Shown in pieces: positions 26,143 to 27,992 of a DNA stretch of 32,317 bases; positions within the stretch are counted from its first letter, which is position 1; every line of letters begins with the position of its first letter. Position numbers and translations under genes: made by a program. The DNA is taken from the NCBI GenBank assembly GCA_021413845.1, contig JAIOPP010000095.1, forward strand, positions 69,993 to 102,309, read 5' to 3'. A model generated the notes under the pieces. That model was not told where the DNA came from, did not search any database, and saw nothing but the letters and a program-made list of their open reading frames with translations. This DNA is from Planctomycetia bacterium. Its GTDB lineage: Bacteria; Planctomycetota; Planctomycetia; Pirellulales; PNKZ01.

Positions 26143-26215
26143 GGGGGATTAGCTCAGTTGGGAGAGCGCTTGCATGGCATGCAAGAGGTCATCGGTTCAA
26201 GTCCGTTATCCTCCA
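26143..26215 (+). tRNA. tRNA-Ala (GGC)
   Basis: A 73-nt cloverleaf with anticodon GGC in the loop ATGGCAT. The acceptor stem GGGGGAT/ATCCTCC contains the G3.T70 wobble that identifies alanine tRNAs. The T stem ATCGG/CCGTT has a T.T mismatch at 50-64. CCA is not encoded. A strong terminator and then an integrase gene follow directly, so the 3' end is a likely attachment site for the element to the right. Confidence 0.95.
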
Positions 26216-26221
26216 CTAATG

Positions 26222-26255
26222 AGACCACTTAGGGCATTCCTAAGTGGTCTTTTTT
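26222..26255 (+). terminator. Strong rho-independent terminator after tRNA-Ala
   Basis: AGACCACTTAGG (26222-26233) pairs perfectly with CCTAAGTGGTCT (26239-26250) around GCATT, and the run of six Ts ends at 26255. It separates the tRNA transcript from the integrase gene. It lies within the putative attachment region, so it may belong to the element. Confidence 0.93.
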
Positions 26256-26298
26256 GTTGAATTTACGGCATTTCCATGTTGTTGAGTCTCAATAAGGC

Positions 26299-26370
26299 GG
26301 GTGCTTGGGTGCTATAAATGGGTGCTAGGCACCGCTCTCGGGTCGGGTATATTGGGTCTTTTTAGCACCC
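26299..26370. repeat. Three direct GGGTGCT repeats plus an inverted copy before the integrase
   Basis: GGGTGCT occurs at 26299-26305, 26307-26313 and 26320-26326, and its inverse AGCACCC at 26364-26370. The third copy also forms GGTGC-TAG-GCACC (26321-26333). A TATAAA (26313-26318) lies between copies two and three. This could be a binding array for the integrase or an excisionase, or an operator controlling integrase expression. Confidence 0.7.
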
Positions 26371-26396
26371 ATGTCCTTGAACCCCAGCGAGCCTCC

Positions 26397-27992
26397 ATGG
26401 CAACTTCAACCGTCGACATTCCGACAGATGATCGTGGTCGAATTCGCTGCTATGTCGGCTACCACATCTCTGCATCTGGGAAGCGAACGCAGCACCCCTT
26501 CTATTTTGGTCGGATCGATAACGAGATCGATACCAAGCAATACCAGAATCGCCTCCAGCGCATCAAAGACGTATGGGCCGGGGTTGAAGCCCGCCATGAC
26601 GCTCAAGATCTCTACGGCTTATTAGAGCCCTCTAAGCCCGTCTGGCGACCGGACGACCTGTGGGTCGCCGACAACTTGGCGAAGGGCCGATATCAAATTG
26701 TGGTCGAACGGTCGGCTGGACAAGACGGCCATTCTTATTCCATCCGCCTGAATCTCCTGGCACAAACCTACCCGCAAGCGTACTTCGCACCGGCCGATGC
26801 GGCCACTTATGCCTCGGGGCAGATATTTTGGGAAAAAGCTGCCGTTTCGCAGCTTCAAAGTATCGGGATGGCCGCAGGAAAAATTCTTCCGCATCAGACG
26901 GGCTTTTTGCATCAGGCCCTCAGCCAGTATCGAAAATCGCACGAAGAGACCTACGTCGATCCGACCACCAAGAAGCTGACCGCAAATGGCGTCGTTCGCT
27001 GCGAGTACGTCGATCACTTGCTAGAGCATCATCCGGACATGCCTCTCACCGACCTCGACCAGGAAGGATGTCAGCAACTACTCAACTACTGGCGAAATCG
27101 GCCGATCTCGAAGAAGTCCAAAGAGAACAAGCAGATCTCGAAATCGTATGCAAAGCATCATAAGGACGAGTTGATTGCGTTCTTTCGGTGGTTGCATTCC
27201 TCGAAGCAGTTCGCATGGCGGAAGCCCGAGGACTTCGACATGCTGAAGACGAACATCTTGGATATCGCTTCGGAAAGGACGGACATCTCCGCACTCGTCG
27301 TGAAGACGTTCGAATTCGAAGACCTGCAACTTCTCTACAAGCACGCCTCGAAGTTCGACCGCTTGCTTCTGCTCCTCGGGATCAACTTCGCATTTCGAGG
27401 TGCGGAAGCCGGAACCCTACAACTTCAGCATCTCCTCGATCGCCATCCTCACGCCAAGTACCTTTCCCAATACTGCGAGTTTGAGGTCGATCCCGAGGAC
27501 AAATGGGTGATCTACTGCCGGGGAAAGAACGGTCATCTAGGAGAGTTCTACGTTTGGAAACGGACTCAAAAGTATCTGCAATGGTGGCTGGAAGAACGCA
27601 CCCGCATAGTCAGAAAAACCGGCGTCAAGCACCCGGAGGTACTTCTCACCAAAGATGGCGAGTTGCTTTTCCGCCGAACCACCGGCAACAAGAACAATTC
27701 GCAGATTTTCGCCAAGAAGTGGACCGAACTGCTTGATCGAGTTGCGGCGAAGACGAAGCGATCTTTGCCGAGAATTCCCTACGGCGGCCTTCGAGATGTC
27801 GCCACCGATCTCATTCGCCAAGCGAAGATTAACGGAGCCGGAGAAGTCGCCAAGACGATGACGATGCATAAGACCCCGTTGGCGAGCGATGACTTGCTTT
27901 CGGTCTATTCGAATCATCCGTGGGGACGACTGTTCATGGCTCAAAAAGAGGTCGAAGCCAAACTAGATCCATGGTTTGAGGCGGTCGAATAG
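26397..27992 (+). CDS. int: Tyrosine recombinase (phage-type integrase)
   Basis: Site-specific recombinase of 531 aa from the ATG at 26397; the frame is open from 26301 but the extra 32 residues cover the repeat cluster and look non-coding. Residues 1-180 resemble an arm-binding region, 180-290 a core-binding helical domain (YAKHHKDELIAFFRWLHSSK). Catalytic-domain landmarks: R334 in NFAFRGAEAGTLQLQHL, K377 in CRGKNG, R466 in GGLRDVATDLIRQA, H491 in MTMHKTPLAS and the nucleophile Y504 in LLSVYSNHPWGRLF. The position three before R466, normally His, is Gly. Its place beside tRNA-Ala suggests it inserts the island there. A weak Shine-Dalgarno (AGCGAG) precedes it. Confidence 0.9.
   Translation: MATSTVDIPTDDRGRIRCYVGYHISASGKRTQHPFYFGRIDNEIDTKQYQNRLQRIKDVWAGVEARHDAQDLYGLLEPSKPVWRPDDLWVADNLAKGRYQIVVERSAGQDGHSYSIRLNLLAQTYPQAYFAPADAATYASGQIFWEKAAVSQLQSIGMAAGKILPHQTGFLHQALSQYRKSHEETYVDPTTKKLTANGVVRCEYVDHLLEHHPDMPLTDLDQEGCQQLLNYWRNRPISKKSKENKQISKSYAKHHKDELIAFFRWLHSSKQFAWRKPEDFDMLKTNILDIASERTDISALVVKTFEFEDLQLLYKHASKFDRLLLLLGINFAFRGAEAGTLQLQHLLDRHPHAKYLSQYCEFEVDPEDKWVIYCRGKNGHLGEFYVWKRTQKYLQWWLEERTRIVRKTGVKHPEVLLTKDGELLFRRTTGNKNNSQIFAKKWTELLDRVAAKTKRSLPRIPYGGLRDVATDLIRQAKINGAGEVAKTMTMHKTPLASDDLLSVYSNHPWGRLFMAQKEVEAKLDPWFEAVE

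Follow-up and report, generated by a model that had tools for sequence, protein, structure and literature searches.

In a 32,317-nt stretch of DNA (G000:C95:69993-102309, hereafter the window), a tRNA-Ala gene, a terminator, a repeat cluster and the gene of a tyrosine recombinase follow one another between positions 26143 and 27992 (Table 1). Does such a succession mark the edge of a mobile element, and what would have carried it there? The original prediction read it as the left end of an island that targets tRNA genes. All four parts are located where it placed them, and the reading is upheld by related elements, because the same module recurs at tmRNA and tRNA genes and the two ends of the element pair in six relatives. 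We therefore consider it very probable that a genomic island is integrated at tRNA-Ala and that the window covers its left, integrase-proximal end.

The Locus in the Window

The tRNA-Ala gene is 100% (G047) and 99% (G366) identical over 76 nt to that of two genomes of the same genus. By eye, its T-stem is unlike that of G071, a genome of the same family, and apparently contains a mismatch that G047 and G366 have too. GC content falls at this gene from 0.622 on its left to 0.553 on its right, and none of the 401 segments of 6,101 nt taken left of the tRNA lies below 0.594; the differing composition is thus borne out. Behind the terminator, the direct copies of the 7-mer GGGTGCT are spaced 8 + 13 nt, which differs from the spacing in relatives, and when the stretch was simulated with a Markov model, 0.6% of the runs produced three copies of one 7-mer per 160 nt. 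A GTG at 26301 offers an alternative start that would carry the recombinase reading frame through the repeats; the alignment of relatives favors the ATG. The putative attL core is placed by analogy with the 14-19-nt copies found in relatives, which end at the tDNA 3' end or adjoin it. The contig stops exactly at the right edge of the window (32317).

Table 1. Features of the locus, numbered from the first nucleotide of the window.
Feature	Position	Strand	Basis or remark
tRNA-Ala(GGC), intact, probable insertion target	26143..26216	+	ARAGORN
Putative attL core (T-arm 3' half and acceptor 3' half)	26199..26217	+	by analogy
Intrinsic terminator, hairpin GACCACTTAGG/CCTAAGTGGTC and T-run	26223..26255	+	sequence, inverted repeat
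GGGTGCT, three direct copies (26299, 26307, 26320), putative integrase arm-type sites	26299..26326	+	
GGGTGCT, inverted copy of the arm word	26364..26370	-	inverted copies in some relatives too
Tyrosine recombinase (integrase), 531 aa, no C-terminal HTH	26397..27992	+	ATG at 26397, no internal stop
Orphan ORF, 148 aa, presumed cargo	28033..28479	-	no Pfam, PHROG or PADLOC match
HEAT-repeat/SEC-C protein, 552 aa, presumed cargo	28725..30383	+	PF13646 1.7e-7, PF02810 1.6e-9
FGE-sulfatase-domain protein, 265 aa, candidate element member	30781..31578	+	PF03781 4.2e-50
Possible C-terminal gene fragment, 42 codons, candidate member	31736..31864	+	by eye; no Pfam match
ORF truncated at the contig end, SDR in the original prediction	31961..32317	-	118 aa, no Pfam match

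The Recombinase and Its Family

Is the product of the protein-coding gene in this succession a recombinase at all? Domain libraries recognize it poorly. The protein matches 0 Pfam families and no PADLOC model, misses the curated cut-off of PF00589, has a sole PHROG match at E 0.064, and gives two unrelated NCBIfam matches far under cut-off. Among 30 members of its family, three match PF00589 at E up to 0.1, L033 among them with a score under the cut-off. A profile search of solved structures gave integrases only at E 0.23 or worse, the better matches being HTH proteins and one unrelated entry. A structure model built on the 30-sequence alignment (mean pLDDT 87.2) has the Tn1549 integrase (6emz) as its best Foldseek match (E 1.2e-6), with lambda integrase at E 3.1e-6, and VIA-align gave Z 18.1 for archaeal Xer (rmsd 8.5, 249 aligned) and Z 15.9 for the Tn1549 integrase. 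On the structural matches listed, the predicted structure confirms that the protein has the tyrosine-recombinase catalytic-domain fold. The loop of Y504 is the poorest part of the model (residues 494-505, pLDDT <50).

Aligned with seven phage integrases, the family profile (E 4.7e-5, probability of 68%) pairs R334 with lambda R212, K377 with K235, G463 with H308, R466 with R311 and H491 with H333; the lambda residue numbers and roles are those that we take to be standard. Y504 falls near the lambda Tyr region, where the alignment is of low confidence. The window integrase carries R334, K377, R466, H491 and Y504. Across all 30 members R322, R375, K377, R466 and Y504 are invariant, and position 491 is His in 29. 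Position 334, the canonical Arg I, is Gly in 22 members, Lys in four, Arg in two (the window protein and L012), Ser in one and Asp in one. Position 463, the box-II His, is never His in the 30 and is Gly in the window. The catalytic pentad of tyrosine recombinases is described as RKHRH (PMC8138268); measured against that description, the pentad is incomplete in the window integrase, which keeps four of the residues, and the family as a whole departs from it because of the residue pattern at 334 and 463. Despite the incomplete pentad, the fold and the paired ends described below still say recombinase.

Outside the catalytic domain, the model has an additional segment, at about residues 85-165, ahead of the core-binding part, and the N-terminal part may be an arm-binding domain, to judge from its position and predicted secondary structure. 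A C-terminal match to Pfam HTH_7 is present in 21 of the 30 members; the window protein ends before that region. In three genomes (G051, G088, G140; loci L021, L022, L026), a second, shorter recombinase that also belongs to this family (about 350 aa, no N-terminal part) lies closely behind the first.

Of 397 genomes in the window's class, which we take to be planctomycete, 75 have a relative of the integrase, the window's own genome counted, and relatives were also found at four loci in a contig collection (genome_contigs). In a phylum-wide draw 21 of 392 genomes gave a match, 20 of them in the window's class and one outside. The window integrase has no relative in plasmid records. The family is highly diverged and, in these searches, found almost solely in one class. 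No paper on it was among those listed by a literature search confined to open-licence papers, which is no proof of absence.

Left Ends in Related Elements

The module in the window is repeated at other loci of the family. ARAGORN called a tmRNA (18) or a tRNA (three: Ser-CGA, Ser-GCT and SeC) adjoining the integrase gene in 21 of 29 loci, and a tmRNA in two of four other loci, two of the 29 being duplicates of two of these four. When the upstream DNA was read directly, a tDNA 3' end was found 162-312 nt before the integrase gene in 28 of 30 loci, comprising 21 tmRNA genes (18 called by ARAGORN; L017, L029 and L030 by eye), three tRNA genes and four bare 3' fragments. The other two, L010 and L032, have no tDNA 3' end upstream, and both are without the N-terminal part in the reading frame used. 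Among the loci examined, tRNA-Ala is the target in the window only. By eye, a hairpin and T-run stand behind the tDNA in most relatives.

Repeated words are also a regular part of the module. In 22 of 31 loci the 160 nt ahead of the gene contain at least three copies of a 7-mer, where simulation gives an expectation of 0.30; 65 of 3,900 random windows pass the same threshold. GGGTGCT is common to the window, L008, L009 and L012, and the words of other elements include GGATCGGAT, TGTCAGG, TGTCTGA and AGTCCGA. Do these words follow the integrase? Mantel tests of arm word against integrase region, on 27 of the 30 alignment rows with words typed by hand, gave weak correlations for the N-domain (0.26), the core-binding part (0.21) and the catalytic part (0.22), and none for the linker region. 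Given the catalytic distance, the N-domain correlation was 0.18, a value reached in 75 of 999 permutations, and the word-reading domain is therefore not singled out.

A host integrase gene that happens to lie beside a tRNA gene in a region of lower GC would need no insertion at all, and gene order around tRNA-Ala varies in the genus anyway. Against this, the same module stands at tmRNA and three other tRNA genes, the ends pair in six elements and the integrase family is sporadically distributed. Chance proximity is already contradicted at the level of the family, and we find it hardly credible for the window.

Far Ends in Related Elements

If the module is one end of an integrated element, a displaced piece of the tDNA should lie at the other. 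The DNA downstream of the integrase was collected for 13 genomes, 100 kb in 11 of them, 57 kb in G012 (to the contig end) and 40 kb in G088. An exact second copy of the tDNA 3' end, 15 nt or longer, is present in seven of the 13 segments (G239, G051, G392, G242, G013, G055, G005); among 716 decoy positions, 20 have one. With the threshold lowered to 13 nt, copies appear in nine of 13 segments and at 165 of 716 decoys; because copies of that length are so common at decoys, the 14-nt copy of G267 is credible only through its arm words. Counting G267, far-end copies of 14-19 nt are found in eight of the 13 genomes, 8-81 kb downstream: 62.7 kb in G239, 36.2 in G051, 81.3 in G392, 25.2 in G242, 80.2 in G013, 78.2 in G055, 23.0 in G005 and 8.1 in G267. 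No credible second copy is present in the segments fetched from G004, G012, G088, G100 and G103 (five of 13). Behind the copy, a perfect stem of at least 6 bp with a T-rich tail is found in four of the eight (G239, G242, G013, G005); the terminator is imperfect, by eye, in G051 and G055, and none is clear in G392 and G267.

The repeated words were compared at the two ends. In six of the eight elements the left-end word recurs in the same orientation within 200 nt to the left of the second tDNA copy, with two or three copies in five elements and one in G055. For each element, none of 5,000 random 200-nt windows was as good, the words having been chosen after both ends had been looked at. Left-end copies are spaced 23 + 22 or 12 + 21 nt in five of the six paired elements, those with three copies. 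The integrase of G267 is among the closest to that of the window (41% identity), and its two-ended element carries the same word, GGGTGCT.

In G051 and G005 the left-end word is missing at the first right-end copy, and the right end of G051 has another word. Further tDNA 3' copies are present in G005 and G239, and a second integrase lies behind the first right end in G239. The arrangements in these three genomes look like stacked elements. In G005 (C10, about 1,776,500-1,832,000; L115-L117) four tmRNA 3' copies lie within 56 kb. Copies two and three enclose a 9-kb segment that is flanked by TGTCTGA words, has no integrase of this family and is perhaps a non-autonomous element. Behind the third tmRNA 3' copy in G239 (C1, about 4,151,100-4,153,100; L070) are two ORFs that resemble, by eye, a split reverse transcriptase of group II intron type.

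Candidate empty sites for two of the elements were considered. For G051, a query of left plus right flank matches G090 at 93% over 453 nt, of which only about 46 nt are right flank, and the candidate was rejected; in four other genomes the right-flank gene is present and the fetched locus contains no tmRNA. For G013, six of 12 genomes gave short or partial matches only. A separate case is that of G069 and G108 (L171, L167, L166). In G069 an entire tmRNA gene and a displaced 3' fragment of a tmRNA lie about 11.7 kb apart with near-identical terminators, and G108 has what looks like the uninterrupted flank. G069 has no match to the present integrase family, so that this site seems to be used by elements of another kind as well.

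Search for the Right End in the Window's Own Genome

Where is the far end of the element in the window? The original prediction proposed to look in the flanking chromosome for the tRNA 3' end in a second copy; none was found in the 99.6%-complete assembly, either as a 22-mer with up to two mismatches or as a 14-mer with up to one. The only other GGGTGCT pair in the genome was tried as a right end and rejected, as it sits in an apparent coding gene (presumably for pyruvate carboxylase) and a control with the reversed word also gave two. The last 120 nt of the contig, besides matching themselves, gave chance-level matches only in the genome.

The site was also compared in related genomes, using one left-flank gene and genomes that are distant (67-68% DNA identity). 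tRNA-Ala has the window's upstream gene as its neighbor in G047 and G366 (58% protein identity) and a more distant one in G071 (43%), and all three genomes are without an integrase of this family. The five right-hand proteins of the window have no match in the stretches of 19, 5.6 and 17 kb taken from these genomes. By eye, gene order right of the tRNA differs among the comparison genomes, and the right-flank block of G047 and G366, recognized by eye as what we take to be yjbQ-glgA, is found on contig C92 of the window's genome and not beside island DNA. The breakpoint is not clean because of this differing gene order and because the right-flank genes are on another contig. In the comparison with related genomes foreseen in the original prediction, G047 and G366 thus have the tRNA and its left neighbor without the integrase, but their right flanks are not colinear. 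What these genomes show at tRNA-Ala is variation, not a clean empty site.

The window could accordingly hold a relic, a special case of the island reading in which the right end has been deleted and the remainder is a mixture of leftovers and host genes that can no longer move. The missing attR in the assembly, the odd arm spacing and the lack of the C-terminal HTH that most members match are as expected of such a remnant. The integrase ORF is nevertheless intact with R334, K377, R466, H491 and Y504, the contig simply ends, and the two-ended G267 element, which shares the arm word, has an integrase without an HTH match too. We regard decay of this sort as a possibility that deserves to be kept in mind but not as the favored account.

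Presumed Cargo

The genes to the right of the integrase are presumed to be cargo from their position and GC content alone. An orphan gene and broken genes had been foreseen among them. The former is there, as the 148-aa ORF has no match in any of three collections; the latter claim is not sustained, since the stretch at 31736-31864 looks like the end of a gene by eye but its 42 residues match nothing in Pfam. Of four window proteins scanned with PADLOC, the HEAT/SEC-C protein matches five models (four over SEC-C, one over the HEAT repeats) and the other three have no match; none of these four points to a known defence system. Relaxase or conjugation names are absent among the scanned proteins in the 6.1 kb right of the tRNA.

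The contents of two-ended relatives were sampled with Pfam. The 8.1-kb element of G267 (four of nine ORFs) encodes a small serine recombinase and a protein with HTH matches just under cut-off, and the 25-kb element of G242 (six of 21 ORFs) an ArdC-like protein, a DUF932 protein, a RuvB-like ATPase, a small serine recombinase, an ATPase-domain protein and a restriction-enzyme R-type subunit. The small serine recombinases (PF00239; L102:8303-9064 and L092:6901-7779) thus occur in elements of very different size.

Could the island be a prophage, its phage genes lying past the contig end? An integrase with arm sites and a tDNA target is phage-like in layout. Yet a search of 50,697 phage records gave no relative of the window integrase and no family member was confirmed among IMG/VR viral contigs, no PHROG of known function is matched by the three window proteins tested, and no phage structural name appears in the scanned ORFs of the G267 and G242 elements. 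A temperate phage is therefore a very unlikely source.

Proposed Mechanism and Meaning

For the island at tRNA-Ala, the anatomy would be lambda-like, with words on both sides of a core formed by the tDNA 3' end and a tyrosine recombinase that reads them. A circular form would carry an attP in which a copy of the tRNA-Ala(GGC) 3' end is flanked by integrase arm sites, and the recombinase would join this attP to the chromosomal tRNA 3' end. Insertion would rebuild the tRNA with a 3' tail and a terminator supplied by the element, which would keep it working, and would push the native 3' tail to the far end. The integrase gene would then lie about 180 nt inside the element, behind the three GGGTGCT copies as the arm-type sites of that side.

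More tentatively, and in the expectation that parts of it may well prove wrong, we suggest that an old, nearly class-restricted integrase lineage works without the canonical Arg I and box-II His, the invariant R375 or R322 perhaps substituting for them, and that each lineage reads its own arm word, which would allow tandem stacking of elements at a single tmRNA gene with no cross-talk between them. If the members without Arg I are active, they offer a test of how far the active site of a tyrosine recombinase can change. In practice, the integrase profile, a tDNA 3' end and a repeated word together provide a search handle for islands in this class, which integrase finders based on Pfam models may miss. 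The ends can be placed closely, and the cargo of the 8-81-kb elements can therefore be listed.

Comparison With Known Systems

How much of this is new? Insertion into tRNA or tmRNA genes with a displaced fragment is the principle of Islander (PMC4383910). The islands described there share with the present ones a tyrosine integrase beside a regenerated tDNA, tandem arrays and a displaced tDNA 3' fragment at the far end, the last seen here in relatives. The original prediction of an undescribed type of element is accordingly sound for the integrase family, but for the layout it gives way to these known islands, and it does not stand for the cargo. The layout is already known; new are the integrase family and the element-specific arm words. 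Unlike the known tDNA islands, the window element has an integrase without a Pfam integrase match, from a family nearly confined to one class, and its right end is not located.

The best Foldseek match is among the Tn916/Tn1549 integrases. Structural alignment with them shows about 11% identity, and the present element differs in its target, a tDNA 3' end. Lambda integrase and attP share with the present system the N-terminal, core-binding and catalytic parts and the direct words on both sides of the core, and the profile pairs R212, K235, R311 and H333, in what we take to be the lambda numbering, with R334, K377, R466 and H491. In contrast to lambda, Gly takes the place of H308 in the window and that of R212 in 22 of the 30 family members, an extra stretch precedes the core-binding part, and a match to HTH_7 at the C terminus is present in 21 of the 30.
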